A stretch of 64,000 nt of DNA from Cyclobacteriaceae bacterium (GTDB lineage Bacteria > Bacteroidota > Bacteroidia > Cytophagales > Cyclobacteriaceae): NCBI GenBank assembly GCA_028285445.1, contig JANQPQ010000015.1, positions 1 to 64,000 of the forward strand, given 5' to 3'. Both the position numbers and the translations under genes were made by a program. Position 1 is the stretch's first letter; every line of letters starts with the position of its first letter. The notes beneath the pieces are model-generated. The model ran no database searches. It was not told the origin of the DNA and saw only the letters and a program-made list of their open reading frames with translations. Positions 8,298-58,662 of the stretch are shown here, in pieces.

Positions 8298-8303
8298 GCA
8301 TCT

Positions 8304-9074
8304 TTATTGCTGTTGCACCACTAAGGTAATCATATCCAAATAGTTTTCAGCTACTAATTCTGCGTCAGGCTTTACAAATTTAACAGTACTAAGCTGCTGA
8401 AAATCAATAGGGTTGGGATTCTTGAATGCCTCGCTGAGATCTACATTGAAATTCAATGTCGCGTCTTTGTTATTAAAAAGGTCAAGTGACAGGCTGTACT
8501 GCAGTGTAGCAAAGTTTTCATCAAAGCCAATGTGAAACACCAAGGGATCAGGAGTACCATCGCCAGGAGCAAAATATTCCCCCTCCATCAAAAAGAACTT
8601 ATAACCTACATCCCAATTCCAGGCCATTTGGTTGTTAGGATCTAAATCTCCAAAGTTGTCGGTAGAAACATTGGTAGTTGGGTCCACACCGATTGAGAAT
8701 TCCAGCTGATCATAATTATCGGCCGGTACCTGCGATAAGTCTATTTGGAAGCTGTTGTTATCAATATCATATCTCACCAGGTGGTAGCTATTTTCCTCCA
8801 CGTATGCTGTGTTAGCCGCACTATTGATCAGCTTAAGATTACTAATGTAGAACTTGAAATCTGCCACGGTGAAATTCCCCACTCCTCCCGGGTTATCATA
8901 GCTGTTGGTAGCTATTTGCAGTGCTTCCGTTCCAACCATGGCGTTAAATGTCAGCGTTACGTCAGCCGGCGTATTATCCAGGCTTTCATCGTCGCAGGCC
9001 ATTACTACTATTGACATTGCTACTATTAGAGCAACTTGCCTGAAAGGTTTAGAAGGGATCCGAAAATTTCTCAT
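8304..9074 (-). CDS. MbnP-type copper-binding lipoprotein
   Basis: This 256-residue protein has a lipoprotein signal ending VVMAC (C27) and a beta-rich body matching the MbnP-like domain: VTLTFNAMVG near the start, FTVADFKFYISNLKL, then NNQMAWNWDVGYKF (M150, W152, W154) and VFHIGFDENF (H181). In characterised MbnP a tryptophan is oxidised to kynurenine by its di-haem partner and helps bind copper; W152 or W154 is the natural candidate here (inference). It is encoded between two MbnH-like genes, overlapping the upstream one by 26 nt and 6 bp from the downstream one, so the three are surely co-expressed. Confidence 0.85.
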   Translation of the reverse strand: MRNFRIPSKPFRQVALIVAMSIVVMACDDESLDNTPADVTLTFNAMVGTEALQIATNSYDNPGGVGNFTVADFKFYISNLKLINSAANTAYVEENSYHLVRYDIDNNSFQIDLSQVPADNYDQLEFSIGVDPTTNVSTDNFGDLDPNNQMAWNWDVGYKFFLMEGEYFAPGDGTPDPLVFHIGFDENFATLQYSLSLDLFNNKDATLNFNVDLSEAFKNPNPIDFQQLSTVKFVKPDAELVAENYLDMITLVVQQQ

Positions 9075-33238: not shown

Positions 33239-33254
33239 TCCAAAAGCAATGCCA
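33239..33254 (-). promoter_or_regulatory. Predicted sigma-54-type promoter of module II permease array
   Basis: On the minus strand the element reads TGGCATTGCTTTTGGA. TGGCA at -24 and TTGG at -12 have correct spacing, but the last base is G instead of the consensus C. Predicted RNA start is near 33228, giving a leader of about 14 nt before the ATG at 33214. It is the counterpart of the elements at 461-476 and 58647-58662. Confidence 0.6.
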
Positions 33255-33317: not shown

Positions 33318-33358
33318 TGTATCACTTTCGTTACACAAATACGTATGTTTATGATACA
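33318..33358. promoter_or_regulatory. Probable activator dyad of module II
   Basis: TGTATCA at 33318-33324 and TGATACA at 33352-33358 are inverted around a centre at 33338, with a small ATACGTAT palindrome near the centre. The centre is 98 bp upstream of the predicted -12 base at 33240, as in module III. The half-site GTATCA is shared with the module III dyad. A short CGGTG/CACCG hairpin (33296-33308) lies between the dyad and the promoter. Confidence 0.5.
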
Positions 33359-33390: not shown

Positions 33391-34761
33391 ATGGAAAAAA
33401 CCGCTGGAACCATATTGATAATAGATGACGACCGGGATGTTTTGGAAACCGCCCGTATGTTTCTGAAACAACAATTCGAGAGAGTAATAATTGACCCGGA
33501 CCCCACCAAACTACCAGCTATTCTTGAAGAAGAATCGATTGATGTGATTCTGCTGGATATGAACTTTAAGAAAGGGGTAAATGATGGGGAAGAAGGTTTT
33601 TATTGGCTTTCCGAGATTTTGAAGATTGATGACAAGGCTATTGTAATCCTAATTACGGCTTATGGGGAAGTAGACCTGGCGGTAAAGGCTATCAAAATGG
33701 GGGCCACAGATTTTGTGCTAAAGCCCTGGAAAAATCAGAAACTGCTCGGTACTATTCTCTCGGCCTTGCAGCTAAGAAAATCGAAGCTGGAAGTGGGAAA
33801 GCTGAAAGACACGCAACAAAAGCTTAACGAAGGTATCAGTAAGCAATTCTCCGATTTCGTAGGAGAATCGCCGTTAATTCAACGTGTTTATGAACTCATG
33901 GAAAAGGTGGCTGATACCGACGCGAATGTGCTTATTTTAGGTGAAAACGGAACTGGGAAGGAACTGGTAGCGAGAGGGCTGCATAACAAATCGAGCCGAA
34001 AAGACAACCCCTTTATTAGCGTAGACCTTGGCGCCATTAGTGAAACTTTATTTGAAAGTGAACTTTTTGGCCATGTTAAGGGCGCCTTTACAGATGCCAA
34101 AGAGAATCGGGTCGGTAGTTTCGAGCTTGCTTCGGGAGGTACAATCTTTCTTGATGAAATAGGCAATCTATCCCTGCCATTGCAGGCCAAGCTGCTTACG
34201 GTTTTGCAAAACCGAACAGTGAAGCGGGTGGGTTCAAACAAAGATATAAATATCGACATCCGGCTGATCTGCGCAACCAATATGCCTTTGTATGATATGG
34301 TGGAGGAAGGAAAATTCAGGCAAGACCTTCTGTACAGAATAAATACGGTGGAAATACAGCTACCACCATTACGAGATCGGGTGGATGACATTCCACTATT
34401 GACCGAACACTTTCTGAATATCTACGCTAAGAAGTATCAGAAAGATGGTTTGCAAATTGGCAAAGAGGTAATGGCTAAACTGAAGAAGTACAAATGGCAA
34501 GGCAATGTTCGCGAATTGCAACATGCCGTTGAGCGCGCCATAATTTTAAGTGAAGGCAAAAAGATAACCTCCTCTGATTTTTTCCTGAAGCCCGCGGCTA
34601 GTGGTAAGAAAGCGATTGAGGCTACCACCCTGGAAGAAATGGAGAAGGTGTTTATTCTTCAATCTTTAGAAGAAAACCAGGGGAATGTAACCAAAACTGC
34701 CCAGGTATTAGGACTAACGCGTACGGCTCTTTATCGTAGACTGAATAAGTATGGAATCTAA
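33391..34761 (+). CDS. NtrC-type sigma-54-dependent response regulator (module II)
   Basis: This is a 456-residue activator. The receiver has D12-D14 and phospho-acceptor D56 (ILLDMNFKKG). The AAA+ domain has GENGTGKELVARG, the sigma-54 loop GAFTDA at 231-236 and GNVRELQHAVERAI. The C-terminal Fis-type HTH contains NVTKTAQVLGLTRTALYRR. It is divergent from the nine-permease array across 176 bp containing the promoter and dyad described separately. The HK follows after 64 bp here, whereas modules I and III have overlapping RR and HK genes. It probably activates the array when phosphorylated by that HK. Confidence 0.93.
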   Translation: MEKTAGTILIIDDDRDVLETARMFLKQQFERVIIDPDPTKLPAILEEESIDVILLDMNFKKGVNDGEEGFYWLSEILKIDDKAIVILITAYGEVDLAVKAIKMGATDFVLKPWKNQKLLGTILSALQLRKSKLEVGKLKDTQQKLNEGISKQFSDFVGESPLIQRVYELMEKVADTDANVLILGENGTGKELVARGLHNKSSRKDNPFISVDLGAISETLFESELFGHVKGAFTDAKENRVGSFELASGGTIFLDEIGNLSLPLQAKLLTVLQNRTVKRVGSNKDINIDIRLICATNMPLYDMVEEGKFRQDLLYRINTVEIQLPPLRDRVDDIPLLTEHFLNIYAKKYQKDGLQIGKEVMAKLKKYKWQGNVRELQHAVERAIILSEGKKITSSDFFLKPAASGKKAIEATTLEEMEKVFILQSLEENQGNVTKTAQVLGLTRTALYRRLNKYGI

Positions 34762-34825: not shown

Positions 34826-36184
34826 ATGATTTTTAGGAGATTTTCATTCCTGGTAGGGCTACGCATTTTCTTTATCATGGGGAATCTATTGCTTATCGCC
34901 GTAATTTTTGGCGACCCCAGATTATTCTTCAACCAAATTATACTAGGTATTATTCTGGTACTGCAGGTACTGGATCTAATAAGGTTCGTAAACAAAACTA
35001 ATCGCGAGCTTTCAAAATTCCTGCTGGCCATTAAGCAGTCAGACTATTCCATAAACTTCAAGGGAACTAAATCCGGAAGTTCCTTTAAGGAGCTGTACGA
35101 TGCTTTTGACCAGATCATAAGTACTTATAAGGAAGTAAAGATCGAACGTGAAGCTCAGTACCAATTCTTGCTCATACTGGTTGAACATATAAATATTGGT
35201 ATAATCAGCATCTCCGGAAAGGACGATATCACCTTGCTGAATAAGCCAGCCAAGAAGATACTAGGTCTTTCAGACGTGCGCACATGGAAAGCCATTGAAG
35301 CCAAGAATCCCAACTTCTCCAAAGAGGTGATGAACCTGCAAGATGAAGGCCGGAAGTTGATTGAGGTAATTCATGATGGAGAAAAGCGCACCTTGTCGCT
35401 GGACGTTAGTTCCATGAAGCTAATTGGCAAAGACAACAAGCTTATAACTTTCCAGGACATAAAAAGTGAAATTGAGCAAAAGGAGATTGAAGCCTGGCAT
35501 AAGCTCATTAGAATCTTGACTCACGAGATCATGAATTCTATTACGCCGATCTCCAGTTTGACTGAAACCATGCAAATGGTCATGCAAAAAGATGATGGCC
35601 AACCAAAGAACTCGCAGGAGATTGATGATGAGTCCCTATCAGATTTACTTTTCTCCCTCAAGACCATTCAAAAACGAAGTGAGGGTATGCTGGAGTTTGT
35701 TGACGACTACCGGAAACTGACCCGGGTTCCGAAGCCAAACCCTGAAATTGTTAAAGTCGAGGAGCTTTTTAAATCTGTAGGAATGCTAATGGAAGCGGAA
35801 CTCAAGAAGGAAGGCATCAGCATGAAGATCACCACCAAGCCTGAAGAACTTGAGATTGAAATGGATCAAACCTTGATTGAACAGATACTGATAAACCTCA
35901 TTACCAATAGCCGACATGCGCTTGAAAAAACTGCATCGCCGTCAATATCTCTTTCTGCCTACGAGAGAGACGGGCGTAAGGTGGTAGAAGTTGCCGACAA
36001 TGGCTCTGGAATTAAACCAAACGAGCTTGAAGAAATATTTGTACCCTTTTTCTCCACCAAAGATCACGGGTCGGGAATCGGCCTAAGCCTCTCTAAGCAG
36101 ATCATGAATCAACACCATGGCAATATTCGCGTCAACTCCACCGTTGGCAAGGGTACCACTTTCTTCCTGGAGTTTAGAGTCTAG
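34826..36184 (+). CDS. Two-TM sensor histidine kinase (module II)
   Basis: This 452-residue kinase has helices at about 9-29 and 38-55 joined by roughly eight residues (GDPRLFFN), then NRELSKFLLAIKQSDYS, which is conserved among the three kinases. A PAS-like region (about 110-215) precedes the H box LTHEIMNSITPISSLTETM with H233. ATP-binding motifs are EQILINLITNSRHALEK, DNGSGIKPNEL and GSGIGLSLSKQIM. The leader has tandem AAAACTC units (34796-34815) just before the ATG region. The gene is not overlapped by the RR, so it may have an additional promoter. The likely partner is the RR at 33391; the stimulus is unknown. Confidence 0.92.
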   Translation: MIFRRFSFLVGLRIFFIMGNLLLIAVIFGDPRLFFNQIILGIILVLQVLDLIRFVNKTNRELSKFLLAIKQSDYSINFKGTKSGSSFKELYDAFDQIISTYKEVKIEREAQYQFLLILVEHINIGIISISGKDDITLLNKPAKKILGLSDVRTWKAIEAKNPNFSKEVMNLQDEGRKLIEVIHDGEKRTLSLDVSSMKLIGKDNKLITFQDIKSEIEQKEIEAWHKLIRILTHEIMNSITPISSLTETMQMVMQKDDGQPKNSQEIDDESLSDLLFSLKTIQKRSEGMLEFVDDYRKLTRVPKPNPEIVKVEELFKSVGMLMEAELKKEGISMKITTKPEELEIEMDQTLIEQILINLITNSRHALEKTASPSISLSAYERDGRKVVEVADNGSGIKPNELEEIFVPFFSTKDHGSGIGLSLSKQIMNQHHGNIRVNSTVGKGTTFFLEFRV

Positions 36185-43982: not shown

Positions 43983-46427
43983 CTACTCGTCTCTCAGTGC
44001 TTTCACTGGGTTTGAAGTTGCGGCTCGCCAAGTCTGAGATGAAATGGTTATTAGGGCTATCACAATCAACCCGATCAAAGGCAATACGAAGAGCCACCAG
44101 AAGAGCGGGATCTTGTAAGCAAAATTATCAAGCCAGGTCCTTGTGGCATACAAACTCACCGGGATAGCAATAAAACTGGCAATTAAGATAAGCTTCAGAG
44201 ATTCTTTTGATAGAAGGACCACCACGTGGTTTACAGAAGCACCAAGTACCTTTCGTACACCAACCTCTTTCCTTCGCTTTAATATACTGAAAGAGGTTAG
44301 CCCGAAAAGCCCCAGGCAGGCTATGACAATTCCCAGCCCAGTAAATACTCTAAACACCTGACCAAATTGCTGCTCGCCTCTGTATGTTTGGTTAAACTCC
44401 TCATCCATAATGGCATAATCGAAGGGGCTTTCGTTGAAAAAATCGTCATATATGTCCTCAATTGCCGGAACTGCCTCAGAAATGTTGGTTGTATTCAACT
44501 TAACATAAAACTGGCCATTTGTACTTAGCAAAGGTTGTATAACCAATGGCTGCACGCTATGCTTCAACGACTGAAAGTTAAAGTCCCGTACTACGCCTTT
44601 TATTTCCCATGTTTTGCCGTAGATGGTTATCTCTTCCCCAACCGCCGCATCGCTAGATGGAAAACCAAGCAGCTTCACGGCAGACTCGTTAAGTAAAGCA
44701 CTGCTTAATGCCGAGAATCGATAGTCATGGTCGCCATAATTTAGATTCTCCCCTACAATTATGTCTGCCTCGAACAACTCCAGGAAGTCGTGGTCTACAC
44801 CAAACCAATTTAACATATAGCGGCCATCACTATCAGTAAAACGCGACTGCACGTCAAACACCCGACCCAAATTGTTACCAAAAGGCCGTTGGGTCATGGT
44901 CACACCTCGCACTACTGAGAGCCTGCCCACTTCACTTTTGAAGCTACTAATTCGATCAATAAATGTAGAATCGAAATTACTCTGGGATGGCCCGGGAATT
45001 GACAGTGTTTGATCCAGGCTGATACCCATATCTTTTGACTTCATAAATTCTACCTGGAGAAAAACCACCATTGAGGCCGTTATGAGAATCATAGACGCTG
45101 TAAACTGAAAAACTACCAGAAGCCTGCGGGAGGTGTTGGTGCCAGTCTGGGCACCCGAAGATCGTAATATATTTGCCGGCTTGAATGAAGAAATCACAAA
45201 CGCGGGATATCCTCCGGCCAGGAGCACTCCAAGCATAAAGAATGCCGATAGAATAACAACCATCATCTGCGAACTAAACAACCCAGTGAAGATATAACTC
45301 AATGATAATGGAACTTGTAGTAAGCTATTAAAAGCTCCCTGCCATATTTGAACTAAGGTTAGGGCGATTATTAATGCTATTACATTAATCCAGAAGGCTT
45401 CAGATAGAAATTGCAGAATTAGCTGCCCCTTGGAAGCGCCAACCACTTTCCTGATACCAACTTCCTTTACCCTGTCGAGGGACCTGGCCGTAGACAGATT
45501 AATATAGTTAATCCAGGCAATTCCAATAATAAAAATTGCGGTAGCCAGTAGTCCCCATATGGCCGTGGCGCTGTTGGTAATTCCAATCTCATACTCGAAA
45601 TCAGAATACAAGTGTGCCTCAAACAGGGGCTGCAGGTAGAACTTCTCAACTGATCCTGTAACTTCATTACCCTTGAGATGTCGCTCGCTAAAGGCATCCA
45701 TTTCAGCATTAATGGTTTCGAAATCAGTTCCCGGTTTAAGTTGAATATAGTGCCAGTAATCAGAGCTTTGCCAAGAGCGATCGGCGCTAGAGTTGAACTG
45801 AACCAGCCGGTTGTATGATACCAGCAAATCGAATTGTAAATGAGAATTTACTGGAATGTCTTCCAAAACTGCGGTTATCTTCATTGGGTCAGAAAACCCT
45901 GAAACAGCCACAACTTCACCAATTACTTCATCAGGAGATCGACCTGCACCAAAAATCTTTGCCGCCTGTGACTTAGTAACCACGAGTGCTGTTTGATCAA
46001 TTAAGGCTTGAGACAAGTCGCCTGCTGCTGCCTCAAAGCTGAACATATCTAATAACGATTGATCGGCAACGACTACTTCCAGTTCGGTATGGCGTTCACC
46101 CTCGAATTCAATGAAAACCTGGCCAAATGGCACCAATCTGGCGTTGTCTTCAATCTCATTAAAATCTTCCTTCAGAGCAGGCCCGACCGCAGAATAGGTG
46201 ATTGTGCCGTGCTGGATGAGCTCTCCATTTTGATAGCGATCATTTACTACCCGATAGATATTTTTGCCGTTTTCGTGAAAACGGTCAAAGCCTAATTCAA
46301 GGGATACATATTCCAGTATCAACAGAAATGCACACATACCAATGGCCAAGCCAAGTATGTTAATGGTTGAAAAGACTTTGTGTTTGAGTATGGCCCTAAA
46401 CGCCGTCTTTATTAAGTTTCTGATCAT
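43983..46427 (-). CDS. FtsX/MacB-like permease, module III gene 6
   Basis: This 814-residue permease is of the lineage called gamma here. It has AWINYINLSTARS at TM2, linker KDMGISLDQTLSIPGP instead of GFDKE, and FSILKR before the second coupling-type motif (RRKEVGVRKVLGA). The first motif is DRVKEVGIRKVVGA. The first periplasmic domain reads TALVVTKSQAAKIFGAG with a 3-4 residue insertion before DEVIGE; the second reads LLNESAVKLLGF. The tail is NPVKALRDE, the only one in module III not ending RYE. It is the last gene of the array, 13 bp after gene 5. Confidence 0.92.
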   Translation of the reverse strand: MIRNLIKTAFRAILKHKVFSTINILGLAIGMCAFLLILEYVSLELGFDRFHENGKNIYRVVNDRYQNGELIQHGTITYSAVGPALKEDFNEIEDNARLVPFGQVFIEFEGERHTELEVVVADQSLLDMFSFEAAAGDLSQALIDQTALVVTKSQAAKIFGAGRSPDEVIGEVVAVSGFSDPMKITAVLEDIPVNSHLQFDLLVSYNRLVQFNSSADRSWQSSDYWHYIQLKPGTDFETINAEMDAFSERHLKGNEVTGSVEKFYLQPLFEAHLYSDFEYEIGITNSATAIWGLLATAIFIIGIAWINYINLSTARSLDRVKEVGIRKVVGASKGQLILQFLSEAFWINVIALIIALTLVQIWQGAFNSLLQVPLSLSYIFTGLFSSQMMVVILSAFFMLGVLLAGGYPAFVISSFKPANILRSSGAQTGTNTSRRLLVVFQFTASMILITASMVVFLQVEFMKSKDMGISLDQTLSIPGPSQSNFDSTFIDRISSFKSEVGRLSVVRGVTMTQRPFGNNLGRVFDVQSRFTDSDGRYMLNWFGVDHDFLELFEADIIVGENLNYGDHDYRFSALSSALLNESAVKLLGFPSSDAAVGEEITIYGKTWEIKGVVRDFNFQSLKHSVQPLVIQPLLSTNGQFYVKLNTTNISEAVPAIEDIYDDFFNESPFDYAIMDEEFNQTYRGEQQFGQVFRVFTGLGIVIACLGLFGLTSFSILKRRKEVGVRKVLGASVNHVVVLLSKESLKLILIASFIAIPVSLYATRTWLDNFAYKIPLFWWLFVLPLIGLIVIALITISSQTWRAATSNPVKALRDE

Positions 46428-46440
46428 GCTTTCTAGTTTG

Positions 46441-48846
46441 TTATTCGTATCGTAGTGAATTCACAGGGTTGGCGGTGGCAGCTTTCACAGATTGGTAGCC
46501 AATAGTTATCAGGGCGACCAGCATCACGGCCAAAACCGAAATTGACATTACGAGCCAACCAATCTGGATTTTCGTGGCATAACTATCGAGCCATTGCTGG
46601 AAAACAAAGTAGGTTATAGGAAGGCCAATGATGGCAGCAACCGCTATCAGTTTTAAATAACTTGCCATTAACAGACCAAGAATGGACGACACCTTGGCTC
46701 CAAGCACCTTGCGGATTCCAATTTCCTTGGTTCTTTGCAAAACCATATACGACGATAGTCCGAAGAGGCCTAGCATGGCAATGGCAATAGCTACAATGGC
46801 GAATAAGCCGAAGACCTGACCAAAGACCTGATCAGCGCGATATTGTTTTTCAAAGAATGAATCCAAAAAGAAGTATTCGAAATGATTGTTAGGAAAAGCC
46901 TGGCGGTAAGCGGCATTAATGCTTGCCATATCTTTTTCTAGATCTTCAATAGCCAACTTTACCGAAATGTATTGATCAATTCTCTCATTGATATAGTAGA
47001 AATGAGGTTCTGCCTGTTTCTTCAGAAACTCCTGGCTAAAGCTCTTTACTATGCCAATTAATTCATATCTCCTGCTTTCAAAGGCATAATGGGTTCCGAT
47101 AGCCTCCTCGTAGTCATCAATGCCCAACTCTTCAGCCGTAACATCATTGATAATGAACTTGGCAGTAGTAGAAGTCTCGTTTGAAAAATCCCGCCCGGCT
47201 AATAACTCAATATTGAAGTTGTTGATAAAATCTTCATCAATACTGACCACCTTGGGGTAACTGCCAATATTTTCATCACCATTAAATCGATGTATCCATC
47301 GGGCCCTGGTTAGTTCGTAACCTGGCACTTGTGAAGAAGAAGAAACGCCGGCAATATTGGGGTTTTGCAGCAACTGCTGTTTAAAATATCTATAGCGTCC
47401 AGGATAAGTGGAGTCAACGACAGCAGCTTTTCTAAGCACAACAGTTTGGTCAAGGCTAATACCCAAATCCTGATTACGCATAAAATCTATCTGCTGAAAC
47501 ACAATTAGGGTACCTGAGATGAATAAGATCGAGACTGTATACTGAAATATGGTTAGGGCCTTCCTGAGATTGAGACCGCCCGACTCGTTGAGTTTTCCTT
47601 TTAATGTAGTCACCGGTTTAAACGACGACATGACTAGTGCCGGATAAAACCCCGAAAGAAGAGTTCCCATCACAAATACAATGGCGAAAATCAACAGCGA
47701 TTCAAAGCTGATGTAACCAGCTATCGATGTAACACCAGTAATAGCCTCAAAAATGGGTTGGAATAGCTGGAACAACGTAATACATAACCCAAGAGACACC
47801 AGGTTAATCATAGTTGATTCCATTAAAAATTGACGAATTAGCAGCTTCCTTGTTGAGCCCATGGTTTTTCGTATGCCCACCTCTTTGGCACGTTCTTGAG
47901 AACGCGCGGTACTGAGATTGATATAATTCACCCAGGCGATCATCAGAATGAAGAAAGCCACAAAGGTGAGGAAGTAGACCACATTGCTATTCCCGTTAAT
48001 GCCCATTTCAAAAGTCACGTCAGATTGAAGGTGAATACTTGCCAATGGCTGTGGAACAACCTCGAAGAGGCCTTCATCCGGATTTTGGTCTAGCAGATCG
48101 AATAAAAATGGATTGAATTTTTCCATTAACTCCTCCACACTCCTGTGCTGGTCAGTTTGGATATAAGTGTAGAAATTTCCCCAACCCCAATTAGTGTCGA
48201 GTTCCCAGCGAGCTGGCAGCGAGCTAAACGAAGCAAGCAAATCAAATTGCAGATGGGAATTAGGTTCAAGATCTGCAATTACTCCTGACACCACATAGAG
48301 CCTATCCCCATTCAGGGCCAGCTGTTTTCCAACAGCAGGAGTATCTCCAAAGAAATTTCGAGCTAGTGTTTCGGTTAGTACCAGTGAATTGGGGTCTTGC
48401 AAGGCGGTCTCAGAATCCCCTTCGACCCAGTCGTAACTAAACATCCGAATAAAATCATTATCTACGTAATAGGCATCGTCTACATTAAACGTAATTGCCC
48501 CAGACTCTCTCTGATAGCTGAATGCGAAGGAAGACATTAGCTTTTCGGGGGATATAACCCTTGTGTATCTCTCGACTTCAGGAAATTCCTCCCGCAGGGC
48601 AGGTCCAAGCGCCGGCATGTTGCTTGCATAGAAATTGACCTGCTCGCCCCCACTTTGCTTACGGATTACTCTGTAAATTCGCTCTCTCTCCTTGTGCATA
48701 TTCTCATAACTCGTTTCGTAGGAGACATACTCCATGATGAGCAATGAAGCGGCCATACCAAGGCCAAGGCCTACGATGTTAATAGTAGAAAAGAGCTTCT
48801 TCTTCCAAATTCCTCGAAGTGCAATCTTTAGGTAATTTTTGAACAT
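46441..48846 (-). CDS. FtsX/MacB-like permease, module III gene 5
   Basis: This 801-residue gamma-lineage permease starts MFKNYLKIALRGIWKKKLFS. Landmarks are NSLVLTETLARNFFGDTPAV, NGNSNVVYFLTFVAFFILM and AWVNYINLSTARS before the first coupling-type motif ERAKEVGIRKTMGS, linker QDLGISLDQTVVLRKA, IINDVTAEELGIDDYEEAI and second motif YMVLQRTKEIGIRKVLGA. The tail is NPVNSLRYE. The leader contains AAAACTCAAAACCCAACAAC directly before the ATG, resembling the leaders of module II gene 2 and the module II HK. It lies 52 bp after gene 4. Confidence 0.92.
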   Translation of the reverse strand: MFKNYLKIALRGIWKKKLFSTINIVGLGLGMAASLLIMEYVSYETSYENMHKERERIYRVIRKQSGGEQVNFYASNMPALGPALREEFPEVERYTRVISPEKLMSSFAFSYQRESGAITFNVDDAYYVDNDFIRMFSYDWVEGDSETALQDPNSLVLTETLARNFFGDTPAVGKQLALNGDRLYVVSGVIADLEPNSHLQFDLLASFSSLPARWELDTNWGWGNFYTYIQTDQHRSVEELMEKFNPFLFDLLDQNPDEGLFEVVPQPLASIHLQSDVTFEMGINGNSNVVYFLTFVAFFILMIAWVNYINLSTARSQERAKEVGIRKTMGSTRKLLIRQFLMESTMINLVSLGLCITLFQLFQPIFEAITGVTSIAGYISFESLLIFAIVFVMGTLLSGFYPALVMSSFKPVTTLKGKLNESGGLNLRKALTIFQYTVSILFISGTLIVFQQIDFMRNQDLGISLDQTVVLRKAAVVDSTYPGRYRYFKQQLLQNPNIAGVSSSSQVPGYELTRARWIHRFNGDENIGSYPKVVSIDEDFINNFNIELLAGRDFSNETSTTAKFIINDVTAEELGIDDYEEAIGTHYAFESRRYELIGIVKSFSQEFLKKQAEPHFYYINERIDQYISVKLAIEDLEKDMASINAAYRQAFPNNHFEYFFLDSFFEKQYRADQVFGQVFGLFAIVAIAIAMLGLFGLSSYMVLQRTKEIGIRKVLGAKVSSILGLLMASYLKLIAVAAIIGLPITYFVFQQWLDSYATKIQIGWLVMSISVLAVMLVALITIGYQSVKAATANPVNSLRYE

Positions 48847-48898
48847 GTTGTTGGGTTTTGAGTTTTTATTCCTTGGGGGCAGCTATTCCTTATTTTTC

Positions 48899-51310
48899 TT
48901 ATTCGTATCTCAGTGCCTTTACCGGGTTCTCGCGGGCTGTTTTCAGCGTAAAAAGACTGGCTGCAAACAGAGCAAGGGCTAATACCAAGGCTGCTGGCAG
49001 CACCAAAAATCCCCAAGTGAGTTCCATATGATAGGCATAGTTATTCAACCACAAATTGAGCGCCCAATATGACACTGGTAGAGCAAACAAGCTTGCCAGT
49101 AGTACCAAAACCACAAAGTCTTTAGATAATAGCGCGATAATGTGCGTTACCGTAGCCCCCAGCACCTTCCTGATACCAACTTCCTTGGCCCTTTTTGAGG
49201 CATAAAATGAAGACAATCCCAATAGGCCCAGGCAGGCAATTACTACCGATAGGCTGGTAAATACTTTAAAGAGTAAACCAAACCTCTCCTCTCCCTGATA
49301 CTGCTTCATATAAAAATCATCTACAAAAAAATATTCAAAAGGGCTCCCGGGGAATAGCTTCTGATAGGTGCTTTCAATACTGGCCATTGCTTCCGGCATT
49401 GCCGTAGCTGATAGCCTTACACTGTAGAAATTGAATAAAGACCTTCCGTTATGAATAATTAAGGGATCGATCTGTAAACGCAGTTGTCGCTGATGGAAAT
49501 CTCCGATCACTCCAACAATCACATTTTCGCCGAAGCCATTTCTCAGTCTTTTTCCGATGGCATCGTGGGCATCCGACAATCCCAGTTTTTTCAAAGCCGA
49601 TTCATTGATCAGTATTTCCGGCTGCCCGAGGCGTGGCGATCTGCCGGCAAGGGTTGGCACCTCATAGTGATCTGTGAAGGATGTGTCAGCAACCATCAAT
49701 GAAAAAATGGTTGCAATCGGTTCACCATCCAGTTCTACATTTCTGCTAAATCGAAATATCTCCCTACCTGGAATTTCGGTGGATGCCGTCACACTTTCCA
49801 CAAAAGGATATTGGCTTAACTCTTGCCTGAACCTGGGAAAATTAGGGCCAGCAACACGCTCCTGCCTGGTACCAACCTTCGGGGCCTTAATTGCCACTTG
49901 CTGCTCCAACTTCACTCCTAAATCCTTTTTCTTCATATAGTATAGTTGGTTGGAGATAACCAGCGTAGAGGCAATCAACATTATGGAAACTGCAAATTGC
50001 GCGAAGACCAACAGCTTCCGTGAAGAAGCGCCGGCAGTGATTGTCAAATTTCTACCTTTCAGAATCTGCGATACTTTTAATCCAGAGAGATACAATGCGG
50101 GGTAGATGGTGCTGCTTAATAGGCACAGCAGCCACGCTCCCACAAACAGAGAGGTAAGAAAGAGGCTATTGAAAATAGTCGCGTGAAGCTCCACGCCCAT
50201 GGTGGTTCTAACCACTGGCACGAATACCTGTACCAAGGTGAAAGCGAAGGCGAAAGCAATGAGGTTTATTAGAACTGATTCCGCGAAGAATTGTGTTATT
50301 AATTCCTGACGATTGGCCCCAGCCGCCTTTCGAACTCCGACTTCACCCATCCGGGCAGTGGCCCTCACCATGCTTAAGTTTACGAAATTCAGGTAGGCCA
50401 CAACAATTATCACCAAGGCTACTAAGGCCAGGAAGTAGATATTCCTCGCATCGCCGTTAACCTCAGCTTCAAACTGAATATCTGAACGGAGGTGTATGTC
50501 GCGAAGTGGTTGTAAATGGTATTGCCAGGTTTGACCTGCCTCAACCAGTTGAATCGTGTTACTCTTGGCAATCGGTTGGAACTTCTGCTCGAGTTCTTTC
50601 GGATTAACACCATGCTGCAAAAGCATGTAGGTGTAAGTATTATTCCATTGCCAGGAATTGTCGAATTGATGCCCAACAAATTCGAACAAAGTTGGATAAG
50701 AGATCAGAACATCAGGATGGATATGGGCATTCTCAGGTGTGTTAGCGTATACGCCCCTAACCACAAAATTTACTGAGCCATCCAGGTTTAAGCTGTTAAT
50801 CTCAATCGTTTTATCAATAGGGTCATCATCACCAAAAAGAGCTTTCGCTGTCCTCTCAGAGATAACGATTGAAAATGGATCTTCCATTGCTCTCCCTAGA
50901 TCGCCAGCAATGGTTCGGTATGAGAACACATTGAAGTGGGATTTATCGGTTAAAAAGATCTTGGTTTCATTGAAGTGGCGATCTCCATTCGAAACTATAC
51001 CGAGCCCGAGAATTATCATTCTTGTAAAATCCCTTATCTCAGGAAACTCCTGGCTGAAAGCCTCGGTGGGGCCCGGAGCTACCCTGGCACTTTGGTTTTC
51101 CAGTGTTCCATTTTTGTGGTAGCCCACTGAAAGCCGATAAATATTGTCTGCATTTTCGTTGTGGGCATCGTAACTGAGTTCATAATCAATGTATTGAACC
51201 AATATCATGGATGAGGCGATGCCAAGGGCAAGACCCACAATGTTTATCGCTGAAAACAGCCGATGTTTAACCAGGTTTCTGTAAGCGATTTTTATGTAGC
51301 TAAATAACAC
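48899..51310 (-). CDS. FtsX/MacB-like permease, module III gene 4
   Basis: This 803-residue gamma-lineage permease has the most altered first coupling-type motif in module III (ARMGEVGVRKAAGA, Gly in place of the usual Lys). TM2 reads VVAYLNFVNLSMVRA. The linker is KDLGVKLEQQVAIKAP. Periplasmic signatures are FSIVISERTAKALFGDDDPI and LINESALKKLGLSDAHDAI. The second motif, KRAKEVGIRKVLGA, is fully conserved. The tail ENPVKALRYE shows the RYE ending typical of module III. It follows gene 3 after 19 bp. Confidence 0.92.
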   Translation of the reverse strand: MLFSYIKIAYRNLVKHRLFSAINIVGLALGIASSMILVQYIDYELSYDAHNENADNIYRLSVGYHKNGTLENQSARVAPGPTEAFSQEFPEIRDFTRMIILGLGIVSNGDRHFNETKIFLTDKSHFNVFSYRTIAGDLGRAMEDPFSIVISERTAKALFGDDDPIDKTIEINSLNLDGSVNFVVRGVYANTPENAHIHPDVLISYPTLFEFVGHQFDNSWQWNNTYTYMLLQHGVNPKELEQKFQPIAKSNTIQLVEAGQTWQYHLQPLRDIHLRSDIQFEAEVNGDARNIYFLALVALVIIVVAYLNFVNLSMVRATARMGEVGVRKAAGANRQELITQFFAESVLINLIAFAFAFTLVQVFVPVVRTTMGVELHATIFNSLFLTSLFVGAWLLCLLSSTIYPALYLSGLKVSQILKGRNLTITAGASSRKLLVFAQFAVSIMLIASTLVISNQLYYMKKKDLGVKLEQQVAIKAPKVGTRQERVAGPNFPRFRQELSQYPFVESVTASTEIPGREIFRFSRNVELDGEPIATIFSLMVADTSFTDHYEVPTLAGRSPRLGQPEILINESALKKLGLSDAHDAIGKRLRNGFGENVIVGVIGDFHQRQLRLQIDPLIIHNGRSLFNFYSVRLSATAMPEAMASIESTYQKLFPGSPFEYFFVDDFYMKQYQGEERFGLLFKVFTSLSVVIACLGLLGLSSFYASKRAKEVGIRKVLGATVTHIIALLSKDFVVLVLLASLFALPVSYWALNLWLNNYAYHMELTWGFLVLPAALVLALALFAASLFTLKTARENPVKALRYE

Positions 51311-51329
51311 TTTCGTAAACAGTTAACTC

Positions 51330-53693
51330 TTATTCATATCTCAGAGAATCAATAGGGTTGGCTCTAGCGGCCTTGATGGTTTGATAGCTAACGGTACCCA
51401 CAGCAATTATTATCGCCAACACACCCCCTACCACAAATGTCATGGGGCCTGGAGAAATTTTATAGGCAAAATCTGAAAGCCATAAATCTGTTGCGAACCA
51501 AGCAATTGGGATCGCAATCAAGAATGAAAACAGCACCAGAATCACAAAGCCCTTTGAGAACATGAGTACCAGATTAGACATTGTGGCACCCATTACTTTT
51601 CTGATGCCCGTTTCCTTTGTTCTTTGTTCCGTTACGAAAGATGCCAGCCCGAATAGCCCCAGGCAAGAAATGAAGATCGCCATAAAGGCGAAAACATTTG
51701 CAAGCTTACTTACGGTTGTCACACTGTTGTAGGCTCTCTGAAACCTATCATCCACGAATTGGTATTCGAACGGATACTCCTGCTCAAACTGATCAAATGT
51801 AGTTTTGATGCCTGCGATTGTGGCTTCGGTGTTATGGCCGTCAATCCTAACCATTACTTGCCAGGCGGCAGTGGGATTCAATTTTATTATAACCGGCTCA
51901 ATAGGACTGAACAACGATTGATGGTGGAAGTCCTTCACCACGCCCACGATTTCTCCAGGATTATCGTCCCAAAATTTTAAGCTCATCCCTATTGGATCTT
52001 CCACCTCCATCATTCTTACCGCCTCTTCATTCACCAGAAAATGATTGTATTTGTCATTGTATTCCTCAGGAAGATTCTTGCCTTCAACCACTTGGATATC
52101 AAAAGTCGATACAAACTGATGGTCAGTCTGTATAACATTGAAGTTAAAATCCTGTTCCTCCCCTTTACCAGGCCAGGTGGGGTCTGATGTTTGGTTGCCG
52201 ATGCCGATCGGATTTTGGTTCGTATATGTGAGTGAGCTTACCCCATTGATGTCCAAAATCAAATTATCAAAGACATCCTGCTTATCTAAGATGCTGCTGT
52301 ATACCGGCATTTGCAGCACATTATCTTTATTTATGCCCAGATCTTTCGTTTGGATAAACTGTATTTGCTGATAAATCACTACTGTAAAGATGATAAGAAC
52401 AATTGCCAGAGTGAATTGAGTAATCACCAGTACTCTGCGCAGGCCGCCCATCGTAGCTTTAGATTGGAACCGATTTGATAATGCCTGTACTGGCTTAAAT
52501 GATGAAACATAAAAGGCTGGGTAGCTTCCGGCGATTAAAGCTGTAACCACACTAATTGCCAGCAAGCTTGAAACGAATATGCCGCTTGTATAGGGCATGG
52601 TGATGGATTTACCGGTGATTTCATTAAAGACAGGCAGCAGCAAATCGGCCAAAGTTATTCCGGCGACTGTGGCCAAAATGGTAATAAACAGAGATTCACC
52701 AATAAATTGAACGATAAGGAAACCACGCCATGCACCTGACACTTTTCTGATCCCCACTTCGCGCGCCCTTTTCGCCGATCTTGCTGTCGACAGGTTCATA
52801 AAGTTGATACAGGCAATCAGAAGTATCACAACGGCGATAACGGAAAACATGCGTACATATTGGATTCTGCCAGTGGGTTCCCTGCCGCCGCTAAAATCAG
52901 AATACAGGTAGCTATCTTTAAATGAGTGCAGAAACAATTCCTCCTTCTCTGAATTTTCCTTGTGGGTTTGTATGAAATCGAAGATTTTTTCCTCAACCTC
53001 GCTCTTAGTGTGTCGTGGATCGATCTGTATGTAAGTCGCCAGATTATAATTACCCCAATGTTTCATCCAGGGTCTGGTGCGTTCGTATTCCAAATAATTT
53101 ATGAGAAAATCGAACTGCAAGCTTGAGTTTGTTGGAGGATCCTTGATGACTCCGGTGACAGTGAACCCGCTTTTACCTTCACGACCCCTAAGGGTTATGA
53201 TCTGCCCTAAGGCTGATTGTCCGGGAAAATATTTTTCTTCTAAGGTTGTAGTGATGACAATATTCTTCAGTTCTCTCAGTGCGATTTCAGGATCGCCAGC
53301 AATAAACTCAAAGTCGAACATTTCTGTGAAGGTGGAATCCACGAAGTACCCTCTTTCTTCGAATTTCACCTCACCATTCTGAACAAGAATACGCTGCGGA
53401 TATGTAACCCTCGTGATATTCGCAATCTCCGGAATTTCTTCTGCTAAAGCCGGAGCCAGCGGACCTTGGGTACTTTGCCAGATCTGGGTAGCGCTCAGGC
53501 CCAAGTCAACCATTATCCTGTAAATATTCCCTCCATTTTTATGGAATCGATCGTAACTCAACTCGTCAGCAATCCAAAGCGAGATAAGTACGAAACAAGA
53601 GATACCAACGGCCAAACCAGAGAGATTGATGGCCGAAAACACTTTGTGCTTGAGTAAGTTTCTGAATGCTATAGTGAGGTAACTGCGAATCAT
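51330..53693 (-). CDS. FtsX/MacB-like permease, module III gene 3
   Basis: At 787 residues this is the shortest intact permease and the only alpha-lineage member in module III. It has LIACINFMNLSTARS at TM2, KRAREVGIRKVSGA, linker KDLGINKDNVLQMPVY and FVTEQRTKETGIRKVMGA. Periplasmic signatures are KNIVITTTLEEKYFPGQSAL, where PGQ replaces the usual GDD, and LVNEEAVRMMEVEDPIGM. Despite its alpha body, its tail ARANPIDSLRYE matches its gamma neighbours. Its leader contains AAAACTCAAAAG about 35 nt before the ATG. It lies 67 bp after gene 2. Confidence 0.92.
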   Translation of the reverse strand: MIRSYLTIAFRNLLKHKVFSAINLSGLAVGISCFVLISLWIADELSYDRFHKNGGNIYRIMVDLGLSATQIWQSTQGPLAPALAEEIPEIANITRVTYPQRILVQNGEVKFEERGYFVDSTFTEMFDFEFIAGDPEIALRELKNIVITTTLEEKYFPGQSALGQIITLRGREGKSGFTVTGVIKDPPTNSSLQFDFLINYLEYERTRPWMKHWGNYNLATYIQIDPRHTKSEVEEKIFDFIQTHKENSEKEELFLHSFKDSYLYSDFSGGREPTGRIQYVRMFSVIAVVILLIACINFMNLSTARSAKRAREVGIRKVSGAWRGFLIVQFIGESLFITILATVAGITLADLLLPVFNEITGKSITMPYTSGIFVSSLLAISVVTALIAGSYPAFYVSSFKPVQALSNRFQSKATMGGLRRVLVITQFTLAIVLIIFTVVIYQQIQFIQTKDLGINKDNVLQMPVYSSILDKQDVFDNLILDINGVSSLTYTNQNPIGIGNQTSDPTWPGKGEEQDFNFNVIQTDHQFVSTFDIQVVEGKNLPEEYNDKYNHFLVNEEAVRMMEVEDPIGMSLKFWDDNPGEIVGVVKDFHHQSLFSPIEPVIIKLNPTAAWQVMVRIDGHNTEATIAGIKTTFDQFEQEYPFEYQFVDDRFQRAYNSVTTVSKLANVFAFMAIFISCLGLFGLASFVTEQRTKETGIRKVMGATMSNLVLMFSKGFVILVLFSFLIAIPIAWFATDLWLSDFAYKISPGPMTFVVGGVLAIIIAVGTVSYQTIKAARANPIDSLRYE

Positions 53694-53760
53694 GGTGTTA
53701 GTTTTTGGATGGAGGTGTTCTTTTGAGTTTTACCTTGAGGGTTGTCAATATTCGATTAAG

Positions 53761-56145
53761 CTATTCGTATCGGATAGACTTTATTGGGTTAGCTCTTGCT
53801 GCTTTAAGACTCTGCAGACTGATAGTTAGCAGGCAAATAACTAACACAGCAATAGCCGGAACTACCAGCAGCAGCCAACTAAGATCAATGCGTAGCGGGT
53901 AAGATTGCAACCAACCATCTATGAGATAGTAGGCCAAAGGCAAACCAAGCACAATGGCTATCCCTACCAGTTTCATAAACTCCAGGTTCAATAAGCCGAT
54001 GATACTACCATCCGAAGCACCCATCACCTTTCGAATGCCAATTTCTTTCATGCGCTGTATGGTTGAATACAGTACCAATCCGAAGAGGCCAATACATGCT
54101 ATAAATAGAGCCAGTGCTGAGAAGATGGTAAAAATGACGCCAAACTGTTTGTCACTCTTGTACTGCCTATCGAAGCTTTCGTCAAGAAAGAAATAATCAA
54201 AGGCATTCCCGGGAAACATCTCTGCATAAACCTCTTCTATGTCGGAAAGAAGCTGCTGGTACCTGGTAGTGTTAAATGCTATTGAAATGTGGTTAGAGGA
54301 TGCTCTATACAATAAGGCTAATGCGGGCTGTGCTCTTTTTACCGAAAGATGATGATAATTTGCATAGACCCCGATCACTTCTCTATCTCTTCCCCAAAAA
54401 CCCATGTGTATCAATTTCCCGATAGCTTCTTCAGGCGAATTAATACCTAGTCTGGCAAGTGCAGATTCGTTTAGGATTACACTGTTGCTGTAATCTCTTC
54501 CCTCCACATAAGCCTGACCGGCCAGCAGCTGCAGCTGGTATATATCCGCAAAGGTCTCATCAATACCCAGCATTTGCACATTAATACCCTCCTCCTGGTC
54601 CAGCAGCCTAATGGATGTCCCCCAGGTAATTTCTTTACCAGGAACACTACTTGAAAGCGTTATTCTCTCTATGCTACTTTTACTGGCCAATTGATTTTTG
54701 AACGAGACCAATCGGCTTGCAAATAGTGAGTCCCTAACTGCTGGTCCCATTACCACCAACTTGTTATCGAGGGCAATTCCCAGATTTGTCTGACGCATGT
54801 GGTTCACCTGCAAGTAAACCGTAAGTGTCAGGGCTATCAGCACTACTGAAACAGCAAACTGGAATATAACCAGTCCTTTTCGGAGGTCAAACTTCTTGAA
54901 TGACGCTGCACTGCTTCCTTTCAAAGCCCGGGTTGGCTTAAAAGCTGATTGAATGAAGGCCGGATACAAACCTGATAGAAGGGCTCCAATCGCGAGAATA
55001 CCAAGGAGCATAAGCCAAAAAGGAGATGGAAACGCAGGCATAATCAGGGAGCGGCCCACTAAATTTTCGAATCCGGAAAAAGTGGCCTGCACAATTGTAA
55101 AACCAACCACAGTACTGATGGTATTTACCACTACTGCCTCTAGACCAAACTGTGCAGCAACTTGCCTTTTGCTGGCACCAATGGATTTCCTAACGCCCAC
55201 TTCTTTCTCCCTTTTGGTTGATTGGGCAATTGACAAGCTGGTGTAATTGGCCCAGGCTATGATTAATATAAGAGCACCAACTGCCAATAGGAAGTAATTA
55301 GTCTTGGCGTCACCGTTGGTGCTTAATTCACCGGGCATGTTAGATTGAAGGTGAATACTATTAAGTGGCTGTAGTATATGACTGAACCCTTCCTCATCGG
55401 GGAATGTAGCTGCAGTATACTGGTTAACCATTTCCTGGAAGTCTGTTCTTTCAACACCGGGTTGCAGCTTCACATACTGGTAGTGGTCGCTCCACCTATC
55501 CATAAATTGATAGACTCTATGGCTCTCCCAGCTGCTATATGAGAAAAGTATATCGAAATTGAAATGAGAATTAGCAGGCATGTCGGCGAAGACCCCGGTC
55601 ACCTTATAAGTGTTGGTTCCATTTTGAAGCATCAATTTTCCAATTGGATTTTCTTCACCGAAATATTTCTTTGCAGTACTCTCCGACAGCACTACCGAGA
55701 AAGGTTGGTTAAGTAGATTCTCCCGATCGCCGCCTAAAAGTGGAAAGGAAAAAACCTTGAAAAATCCCTCTTCAGCAAAAATTGCTTTATCTAAAGAGTA
55801 GACCTTTTCATCGTAGGCCAAAACAAAATTGCCCATGATGCCAGACATATTAATGAAGTGCGCATAATCTACGACCTGAGGATATTGATCCCTAAGGTCT
55901 TTACCGACACTACCAAATGTTTTAACTCCTCCACTTATGCTACCATCGTTTTCAGTTTGGCTGGTTACCCGATAGATGTTCTCTGCGTCAATATGAAATG
56001 AGTCGAAGCTGAACTCAAAATTTACATAAAGGAATATCATCATGGCCGACCCCACTCCTATTGACAAACCGACAAGGTTTATCAAACTAAACACCCTGTT
56101 CTTTACCAGGTTGCGAATCGTTACTTTCAGATAGTTCTTGATCAT
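53761..56145 (-). CDS. FtsX/MacB-like permease, module III gene 2
   Basis: This 794-residue gamma-lineage permease starts MIKNYLKVTIRNLVKNRVFS. Landmarks are FSVVLSESTAKKYFGEENPI, NGDAKTNYFLLAVGALILI, AWANYTSLSIAQS (Thr-Ser replaces the usual Ile-Asn), first coupling-type motif KREKEVGVRKSIGA, linker TNLGIALDNKLVVMGP, VILNESALARLGINSPEEAI and second motif YSTIQRMKEIGIRKVMGA. The tail is ARANPIKSIRYE. It lies 11 bp after gene 1, and a 67-bp gap separates it from gene 3. Confidence 0.92.
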   Translation of the reverse strand: MIKNYLKVTIRNLVKNRVFSLINLVGLSIGVGSAMMIFLYVNFEFSFDSFHIDAENIYRVTSQTENDGSISGGVKTFGSVGKDLRDQYPQVVDYAHFINMSGIMGNFVLAYDEKVYSLDKAIFAEEGFFKVFSFPLLGGDRENLLNQPFSVVLSESTAKKYFGEENPIGKLMLQNGTNTYKVTGVFADMPANSHFNFDILFSYSSWESHRVYQFMDRWSDHYQYVKLQPGVERTDFQEMVNQYTAATFPDEEGFSHILQPLNSIHLQSNMPGELSTNGDAKTNYFLLAVGALILIIAWANYTSLSIAQSTKREKEVGVRKSIGASKRQVAAQFGLEAVVVNTISTVVGFTIVQATFSGFENLVGRSLIMPAFPSPFWLMLLGILAIGALLSGLYPAFIQSAFKPTRALKGSSAASFKKFDLRKGLVIFQFAVSVVLIALTLTVYLQVNHMRQTNLGIALDNKLVVMGPAVRDSLFASRLVSFKNQLASKSSIERITLSSSVPGKEITWGTSIRLLDQEEGINVQMLGIDETFADIYQLQLLAGQAYVEGRDYSNSVILNESALARLGINSPEEAIGKLIHMGFWGRDREVIGVYANYHHLSVKRAQPALALLYRASSNHISIAFNTTRYQQLLSDIEEVYAEMFPGNAFDYFFLDESFDRQYKSDKQFGVIFTIFSALALFIACIGLFGLVLYSTIQRMKEIGIRKVMGASDGSIIGLLNLEFMKLVGIAIVLGLPLAYYLIDGWLQSYPLRIDLSWLLLVVPAIAVLVICLLTISLQSLKAARANPIKSIRYE

Positions 56146-56156
56146 AGCTTGTGGGT

Positions 56157-58631
56157 TTACTCGTAGCGCAAGGCTTTTATCGGATTAGAGGCAGCGGCTT
56201 TCGTTGTTTGCACGCCGATGGTAATAGCAGTTATGGCTAATATCATGAATGCGGGCAAGGCAATTACCCACCATCCGAGGTCAATACGAAAGCTGTAGTT
56301 GCTTAACCACTGATTTAAGCCAAACCAAATCAGTGGAGACGCAACAACAATGGCGATGACAATTAATCGGATGAAGCTACGGGACAGTAGCACCACAATT
56401 ATCCAGTGGTCTGCTCCTAAGACTTTTCGAATACCAACCTCTTTAGTGCGCTGCACAATGGTGTATGACGAAAGCCCGAAAAGGCCCATCATGGCAATGA
56501 CAATGGCAAGCATTGAAAATGTGCCAAATATTTGCCCAAATTGCTGATCAGCCTTGTACTGAGCATCGAAGTTCTCATCCATAAAGAAATAATCGAAGGG
56601 AGCTTCTGGAAAAGATTGTTTCCATGAATTCTCCACAGTGGCAACGGCTTGCTTCACTGCTTCTCCCTTAGATTCAAAATCACCTTCAGGAATATTGAGC
56701 TCTATCGTATAGAAATTACTCCATATGCTTAGCACAAAAACCAGCGGTTGATAGTCGTTCCTCAATGATTTGAAGTGGAAATCTTTCACTACTCCTCTTA
56801 CTATTAGTGGTACAGTGAACATTCTATTTTCAACAACCTCGCCGATGGCATCTTCCGGCGAATCAAACCCTAGCATTTCAACCGCTCTTTCCGAAAGTAC
56901 TATATCGCCACGTGACCATGGGTTGTCTCCCTCCTGATAGAAGCGGCCCGCGACCAACTCCAAATCATAGACGTCCATAAAATCCTGGTCCAGGGCAATG
57001 TGGTAGAAGTAATCAGTTACTTCCTGCGTCTGGCCTTTGCGTTTGTATCCGCTTTGAAACCAGCTAATGTCCTTGCCCGGAATTGCGCTTGATGTCGTCA
57101 TGGCCAGCGCTTCAGGTTGTCTCAGTAATTCAGTTTTGAAAGTATTTACTGCATTTGTGGTTTCAGATCCATCTATGATATTGCCCGGAGGTGCGTTGAT
57201 TATTAACAAATCATCAACCTTCATACCCAGGTCCACATTCATCATATAATTAACCTGTCGATAGACAGTAATTGTTGTGGCGATCAGGCCCAATGAAATG
57301 AAGATTTGAAAAACAACAAATGACTTTCTCAACCAGATACCCCTGGTGCCGGTTTTCACTTTTCCTGATAAAGCTTGCAATGGTCTGAATGCGGAAATTA
57401 TAAATGCCGGGTAAAGCCCCGAGAGAACAGACCCTGTGATGAATACGCTGAGCAGGCCAACTAAAAACACGGGCTCAAGCCACATATTAATTGCGATCGG
57501 CTTACCGACTATACGCTCTGCATACGGACTAAGTAACTGGGTAATGGTGAAGGCTATAACTAACGCCATCAAACCTATCAGTACAGATTCGACCAGGAAC
57601 TGGCTAATGAGCTCTGCCCGGCCTGATCCTAATGATTTTCTAACACCTACCTCCTTGGCCCTTTCTACAGATCTCACTGTGGAAAGATTGATGTAATTGA
57701 TGTAAGCGATGGCCAGAACTATTATGGCCACAGCCAACAGTGCCTGTACCGTTAATCGGTCGCCGTTGGCTTTGAATTCAGCCACCAGGTGTGAGTTAAG
57801 ATGAATGTCTTCAAGCGGCTGCAAGTCCATTTCCCAGGTAAGGCTGCGGCTTTTTAGCTGCTCTCCTAAATTACGCTCTATAATAGCATCCATTTTTAAT
57901 TGCAGTTCTTCCTTTTCAAATCCGGGAGTCATTTGCAAATAGGTATAGTATCCGCTCCAGCCCCAGGAATTTGTTGAGCCCTCCGCTATGGCTTCATAAG
58001 TTTCTGTAGCTATTAAGAAGCTGAAATCAAAATGTGTATTCTCTGGCAGGTCAGCAATTACACCTACCACTTTAAGATTCATAACGCCAGTATTACCGCT
58101 AAAACTGATAACCTTACCTAGAGGGTCATCGGACTCAAAGTACTTATCAGACACCTCTTTGCTTACAATTACAGTGTTAGGTTCTGACAATGCGCTGCTG
58201 ATATCACCGGCGACTAAGGGAAATGAAAACATATCGAGAAAATCCGCATCAGCAAGGTAGATACCTGACTCATTGAACGACTTCCTTGTCCCGTCAGCTT
58301 CATGACTTACCAATAGGTTCTGGTGATCAAGACTATAAAATCGACTAAATCCCTCTACTTCAGGTATCTCCTCTTTGAAAGCAATTCCAAGAGCTGATGG
58401 CACCCCAGCGAAACGATCTTTTAATGCCCCACTTTCATAACGATCAACCTTCACTCGAAATACTTGATCCCCCTTGGGATGAAACTCATCGTAGCTATGT
58501 TCAAACAACACATATTGTAAGATGAGTAGGAACGCTGCCATGCCAATAGCCAGGCCTAAAATGTTAATGCCGGAAAACACTTTGTTTTTCAGCAGGTTTC
58601 TCAGTGCAATCAGTAAGTAATTCTTTGCCAT
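56157..58631 (-). CDS. FtsX/MacB-like permease, module III gene 1 (promoter-proximal)
   Basis: This 824-residue gamma-lineage permease starts MAKNYLLIALRNLLKNKVFS. Starts 27 and 39 nt further upstream (58658, 58670) lie in or beyond the predicted promoter at 58647-58662 and add residues absent from every paralogue, so 58631 is preferred. Landmarks are NTVIVSKEVSDKYFESDDPL, AYINYINLSTVRS, ERAKEVGVRKSLGS, linker VDLGMKVDDLLIINAP, IVLSERAVEMLGF and YTIVQRTKEVGIRKVLGA, with tail NPIKALRYE. If the promoter call is right the leader is only about 5 nt, nearly leaderless. Confidence 0.91.
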   Translation of the reverse strand: MAKNYLLIALRNLLKNKVFSGINILGLAIGMAAFLLILQYVLFEHSYDEFHPKGDQVFRVKVDRYESGALKDRFAGVPSALGIAFKEEIPEVEGFSRFYSLDHQNLLVSHEADGTRKSFNESGIYLADADFLDMFSFPLVAGDISSALSEPNTVIVSKEVSDKYFESDDPLGKVISFSGNTGVMNLKVVGVIADLPENTHFDFSFLIATETYEAIAEGSTNSWGWSGYYTYLQMTPGFEKEELQLKMDAIIERNLGEQLKSRSLTWEMDLQPLEDIHLNSHLVAEFKANGDRLTVQALLAVAIIVLAIAYINYINLSTVRSVERAKEVGVRKSLGSGRAELISQFLVESVLIGLMALVIAFTITQLLSPYAERIVGKPIAINMWLEPVFLVGLLSVFITGSVLSGLYPAFIISAFRPLQALSGKVKTGTRGIWLRKSFVVFQIFISLGLIATTITVYRQVNYMMNVDLGMKVDDLLIINAPPGNIIDGSETTNAVNTFKTELLRQPEALAMTTSSAIPGKDISWFQSGYKRKGQTQEVTDYFYHIALDQDFMDVYDLELVAGRFYQEGDNPWSRGDIVLSERAVEMLGFDSPEDAIGEVVENRMFTVPLIVRGVVKDFHFKSLRNDYQPLVFVLSIWSNFYTIELNIPEGDFESKGEAVKQAVATVENSWKQSFPEAPFDYFFMDENFDAQYKADQQFGQIFGTFSMLAIVIAMMGLFGLSSYTIVQRTKEVGIRKVLGADHWIIVVLLSRSFIRLIVIAIVVASPLIWFGLNQWLSNYSFRIDLGWWVIALPAFMILAITAITIGVQTTKAAASNPIKALRYE

Positions 58632-58646
58632 ATCTGTTCGTATCTT

Positions 58647-58662
58647 TCCAATATGCATGCCA
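58647..58662 (-). promoter_or_regulatory. Predicted sigma-54-type promoter of module III permease array
   Basis: On the minus strand the element is TGGCATGCATATTGGA. It has TGGCATG at -24 and TTGG at -12 with exact spacing and, as in module II, G where the consensus has C. Predicted RNA start is near 58636, just before the ATG at 58631. Confidence 0.6.

Follow-up and report, generated by a model that had tools for sequence, protein, structure and literature searches.

The three permease arrays of the window (the whole stretch of DNA analysed here, 64 kb) are very probably transcribed from RpoN promoters that the neighbouring regulators would open. The TTGG or TTGA of their -12 elements would then be a conserved Cytophagales variant and not a product of decay. 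This interpretation is drawn from sequence comparison. A promoter set of sigma-54 type with a conserved, regulon-specific TTGR appears well supported and is a better description than “weakened”, the term used in the initial annotation.

Promoter elements, regulators and predicted activator sites

The pattern TGGCATNNNNNTTGR has exactly three matches in the window, all on the minus strand. Shuffling of the window gives an expectation of 0.72 ± 0.79 for TGGCAT-N5-TTGR, and three or more matches were reached in only 2 of 100 shuffles. The elements and the arrays are as follows.

462-476, minus strand: -24/-12 element of array 1, TGGCATAAGCATTGA = TGGCAT-AAGCA-TTGA (motif match)
33240-33254, minus strand: -24/-12 element of array 2, TGGCATTGCTTTTGG = TGGCAT-TGCTT-TTGG (motif match)
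58648-58662, minus strand: -24/-12 element of array 3, TGGCATGCATATTGG = TGGCAT-GCATA-TTGG (motif match)
1-427, minus strand: leading permease gene of array 1, truncated at the window edge (permease profile match)
11338-33232, minus strand: array 2, nine MacB_PCD/FtsX permease genes separated by 2-57 nt
43983-58670, minus strand: array 3, six MacB_PCD/FtsX permease genes separated by 11-67 nt

TGGCA is present at -24 in all three elements, and the TTG of the -12 follows at the exact sigma-54 spacing (N5) each time. A C after this TTG is a strong preference of the sigma-54 consensus, not an invariant feature. It is absent from all three elements, whose final bases are A, G and G in order of coordinate. 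Because of this missing C, the elements were filed as variant sigma-54 promoters. Each of them is located upstream of a first permease gene (MacB_PCD and FtsX); on its other side, a response regulator with a Sigma54_activat domain is encoded divergently. Were three sites placed at random, the chance of finding one of them within 80 nt of each array start would be ~1e-9. The initial annotation had described three minus-strand matches of this kind, with exact TGGCA-to-TTG spacing, no TTGC and a position in front of the first permease gene, and all of this is borne out. Its sites were also right, but its spans were one base too long and it gave the final bases in another order.

The divergent genes encode the three response regulators, each with a histidine kinase gene beside it.

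633-2006, plus strand: response regulator RR1 (Pfam receiver, Sigma54_activat and HTH_8; loop GAFTDA)
1996-3336, plus strand: histidine kinase adjoining RR1 (HATPase_c)
33391-34761, plus strand: response regulator RR2 (Pfam receiver, Sigma54_activat and HTH_8; loop GAFTDA)
34826-36184, plus strand: histidine kinase adjoining RR2 (clear ATPase domain)
58809-60170, plus strand: response regulator RR3 (Pfam receiver, Sigma54_activat and HTH_8; loop GAFTDA)
60160-61506, plus strand: histidine kinase adjoining RR3 (domain match)

All three regulators contain the Walker A motif GENGTGKE. The HisKA match of the kinase at 34826-36184 is sub-threshold (E 0.0059). In the genome as a whole, eleven true activators bear a Sigma54_activat domain. 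The targets of the regulator class to which RR1, RR2 and RR3 belong are either FtsX/MacB permeases or an HlyD-type fusion protein with an ABC ATPase.

Upstream of each element, palindromes were found that are probable activator sites.

541-578, minus strand: array 1, tandem palindromes TGCCCATAAATGGGCA (563-578) and TTTCCATAAATGGGCA (541-556), centred 96 and 74 bp upstream of the -24
33319-33357, minus strand: array 2, GTATCATAAACATAC (33343-33357) and the better supported TGTAACGAAAGTGATACA
58728-58765, minus strand: array 3, tandem palindromes GTGTCATGTTGATAC (58751-58765) and GTATCAAATTGACAC (58728-58742), centred 98 and 75 bp upstream of the -24

For arrays 1 and 3, none of 200 shuffles was as good. 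The blind palindrome scan is weak for array 2 (10 of 200 shuffles as good), and the first palindrome of this array is weak. A scan with the consensus of the orthologues gave a best pair equalled in 1 of 1000 shuffles, with its main member, TGTAACGAAAGTGATACA, centred 74 bp upstream of the -24; the second site was assigned by eye, and the support for the pair comes mainly from TGTAACGAAAGTGATACA. In the window and in relatives, the members of a pair are 20-24 bp apart and stand at fixed distances upstream of the -24, namely ~97 and 74 bp at permease-type loci and 83 and 63 bp at HlyD-type loci. Pairs pass the shuffle test in 31 of 46 independent orthologous loci. Two adjacent upstream dimer sites are a usual layout of NtrC-type control.

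These features suggest the following scheme. The kinase would phosphorylate the adjoining response regulator, which would bind the two tandem palindromes ~97 and 74 bp upstream of the -24. The bound regulator would assemble its AAA+ ring and open the RpoN polymerase waiting at TGGCAY-N5-TTGR. The permease operon would then be transcribed with a very short leader, from the predicted start sites. Tight dependence on the activator, as previously proposed, fits sigma-54 biology and the tandem palindromes, but nothing ties it to the -12 base.

Recurrence of the element and of its -12 base

In 19 genomes of the order, regions around activators were chosen without regard to the motif. They contain 26 intergenic TGGCAY-N5-TTG; six other spacings gave 3-13 each, and the reversed pattern gave 2. 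In the sampled parts of the own genome, the count at spacing 5 is 19 versus a mean of 4.4; this sample was largely drawn around motif sites, which biases the count but leaves the -12 base unaffected. Whole-genome counts of the TTGC, TTGG and TTGW versions in the 19 genomes are dominated by coding matches.

As a second test, 80 orthologous regulator loci were fetched by protein similarity, from Cytophagales such as Fulvivirga, Chryseolinea and Roseivirga and, with L286, from outside this order; 78 were scanned on the divergent strand, where the element is expected. They yielded 46 TGGCAY-N5-TTG. The other spacings occur 0-3 times, except spacing 2, which gives 25 and corresponds to a TTG inside the spacer of HlyD-type promoters. 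About 30 of the 78 loci are without a full core near the regulator, and some of these have a degenerate TAGT or TCGT. This could mean that the element tolerates variation or that the target of such loci lies elsewhere. At L213, L215, L216, L221, L224, L227 and L232, TGGCAY-N5 is followed in place by TAGT, TCGT or TGGT, with T at -12.

The -12 base was then compared, in counts that come from related sequences and therefore overstate independence. It is G in 15, A in 5 and T in 1 of the 21 full-core promoters of the regulon, with no C. The 46 independent orthologous loci have G 42, A 3 and C 1. Within them, the permease-type subset of 18 loci, which spans many genera with divergent spacers, has G 15, A 3 and C 0 (p ~6e-8 for G against base composition). 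The picture differs at groES, where nine promoters of the form TGGCAY-N5-RTG, taken from the own and related genomes, have C 6, A 2 and T 1. The difference in C between regulon and groES has p ~1e-4 with the first set and 2e-5 with the second, both made optimistic by relatedness.

Since C is found in 6 of 9 groES promoters of the same lineage, the missing C seems to be mainly a feature of the permease/HlyD regulon, and C would remain an accepted base in the lineage. The departure from TTGC, suggested earlier to be lineage-specific, thus stands within the regulon (a single C in 46 loci) but for the most part does not extend to groES. Other putative promoters of the own genome have A, C, T or G at -12, for example dnaK with TTGA and Hsp20 with TTGT; in an unbiased count, the few non-regulon sites show a modest excess of C and G at spacing 5. 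Both groES and dnaK are mapped sigma-54 targets in Flavobacterium psychrophilum (PMC9723704). The sigma-54-like elements upstream of dnaK (L191:9958) and Hsp20 (L204:15723) are in keeping with this mapped flavobacterial chaperone regulon. At L052 (~14582) and its orthologues, a gene for a sigma-54 activator is found ~4 kb away from groES, which in nine genomes is preceded by a TGGCAY-N5-RTGC element of its own. The proximity of groES to an activator gene recurs in F. psychrophilum (PMC9723704).

Two further candidate features were discarded. A T at -35, present in 19 of 21 regulon promoters, does not clearly repeat in the independent loci. A second overlapping promoter through the TTGGCA of the HlyD-type element fits L087 and not the other loci.

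RpoN, the activator loop and rival readings of the -12 base

The genome has one RpoN copy (G000:C14:142492-142968, L001), with an intact RpoN box, ARRTVAKYRE. The -12 GC is read by three residues of the sigma-54 helix-turn-helix, His377, Ser379 and Arg383, in the solved structure of the closed complex (PMC9770992). Alignment places Asp, Ser and Arg at these positions in the own genome and in all 17 relatives with a readable motif (L148-L164), Asp replacing His377. The corresponding code, M-D-x-S-T-[IV]-S-R-V, occurs a single time per genome in 78 of 148 genomes of the phylum, with no control match. A pattern search for His at residue 377 across the phylum gave matches at chance level. The replacement of His377 could relax the need for C at -12, and this altered helix-turn-helix probably permits TTGG and TTGA to be kept across Cytophagales. 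As sole cause it was set aside, because the change is phylum-wide while groES keeps C.

A neutral version of this idea is that the RpoN of the phylum needs no C and that any base serves, the G of the regulon being due to common descent. The wide occurrence of Asp for His377, counted by exact pattern in more than half of the phylum genomes, and the mixture of all four bases at other putative promoters of the genome are in line with it. The skew of the permease-type loci towards G, maintained across many genera while their spacers diverged, and the mostly conserved C of groES in the same lineage argue against it. We consider neutral relaxation possible but not probable. Under the preferred reading of a conserved variant, G or A at -12 looks kept and not decayed, and we infer that it is under selection.

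The loop of the activators also bears on the -12 base. The GAFTGA-type loop contacts sigma-54, near the DNA at -12 (PMC7057263). The exact GAFTGA is absent from RR1, RR2 and RR3. GxFTDA replaces it in 39 of 40 regulators of the class from the own and related genomes, a count in which two truncated fragments (L144, L146) are taken as members; in the second set (L207-L286), the figure is 80 of 80. Other activators of the same genomes have GAFTGA, GSFTGA, GSFTSA or GAFTSA. It may be hypothesized that the loop and the -12 base are functionally linked. In its strong form, promoters with G or A at -12 and GxFTDA regulators would be co-adapted, a private pair that shuts out GAFTGA, GSFTGA and GSFTSA activators; this we regard as unlikely. 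A strict link is disfavoured because L286, an orthologous module outside Cytophagales, pairs a GAFTDA loop with TTGC. Asp for the second Gly of GAFTGA is compatible with activity in known proteins. DVU2106 of Desulfovibrio vulgaris has a natural GAFTDA loop and is regarded as able to activate (PMC4641369), and the equivalent NorR change, G266D, kept activity and escaped repression (PMC2941729). Unlike in these single cases, the loop variant marks here a whole regulator class of an order.

According to the initial annotation, a weakened -12 would keep the promoter silent without its activator. The consensus C is indeed missing in all three elements, and the -12 region is where melting begins (PMC9770992). 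However, the strong and non-random preference for G or A argues for a maintained sequence, groES keeps C in the same lineage, and sequence gives no measure of promoter strength. Moreover, alterations of sigma-54 where it meets the -12 region can lead to activator bypass as well as to loss of function (PMC9770992, PMC7057263), so that an effect of either sign could be expected. A weakened promoter is thus distinctly unlikely.

The GC doublet could also have shifted one base downstream (TTGGC), with a spacing one base longer and no changed base. In favour of this, the R is followed by C in 14 of the 21 promoters of the regulon, among them nearly all of HlyD type (TTGGCA). However, arrays 2 and 3 of the window read TTGGAAA, with C at neither place, and the next base is mixed in permease-type orthologues (about A 8, C 5, T 3, G 2). 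We therefore judge the shifted doublet very unlikely.

There is a negligible probability that the motif is due to chance or coding constraint, or that the arrays have a sigma-A promoter of the ordinary kind. The plain pattern is common genome-wide, mostly in coding DNA, but placement at the array starts, the specificity for one spacer length and replication in orthologous loci (46 at spacing 5 vs 0-3, spacing 2 aside) argue against these readings, the replication already contradicting chance. As to sigma-A, the spacers AAGCA, TGCTT and GCATA have no TA where TAnnTTTG, the Bacteroidota sigma-A box (PMC9723704), requires it.

Permease arrays, scope and known systems

The nine genes of array 2 probably form one operon, and so do, probably, the six genes of array 3. 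A promoter scan inside the nine-gene array gave hits at chance level, and terminator-like sites are in slight excess there (25 vs 18.1 ± 4.7 in shuffles). No ABC ATPase was seen within the nine- and six-permease arrays, whose permeases are 27-37% identical to one another. In the whole genome, at least 150 MacB_PCD matches are listed.

The predicted transcription starts are 450, 33228 and 58636, as expected in the initial annotation. For arrays 2 and 3, the ORF starts that were called mechanically (33232 and 58670) precede these positions. For this reason, the in-frame ATGs at 33214 (MIKSFF) and 58631 (MAKNYL) are most likely the working start codons. With the ATG of array 1 at 427, the predicted leaders are 23, 14 and 5 nt long for arrays 1, 2 and 3.

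The canonical sigma-54 promoter is TGGCACN5-7TTGCT (PMC12316311). The present elements resemble it by TGGCAY at -24, the spacing to TTG, upstream sites, an adjoining activator gene and a genomic RpoN, and differ from it by G or A for C at -12 in nearly all members. In the same study, COG0577 permeases (the permease component of ABC transporters of antimicrobial-peptide type) are reported as enriched among predicted sigma-54 targets of Bacteroidia; its passages on this describe neither a divergent regulator module nor the -12 variant. The sigma-54 regulon of F. psychrophilum (motif SM4) belongs to the same phylum, and its groES and dnaK targets carry elements in the lineage of the window too (PMC9723704). 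Unlike here, no permease arrays are among its listed targets (PMC9723704).

Provided that the -12 variant is functional, a search requiring TTGC will overlook this regulon across Cytophagales. The regulon also offers a natural experiment on the fit between sigma-54 helix-turn-helix, -12 base and activator loop at the point from which the promoter melts, and its sites can serve to study the switching on of very long transporter operons.

The earlier statement that the element stands before every permease array is true of the window but not of the genome. Elsewhere in the sampled genome, permease first genes that have no regulator neighbour number about 14, and 2 of them carry the full motif (L169:9944 and L204:1743). 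At L169:9944, palindromes of GTATCAATATTGATAC type, resembling those of the window regulators, are found at the same distance, and this permease may be controlled in trans. Within the window, region 7260-10143 contains an MbnP-family gene flanked by two genes for di-haem MauG-type peroxidases.
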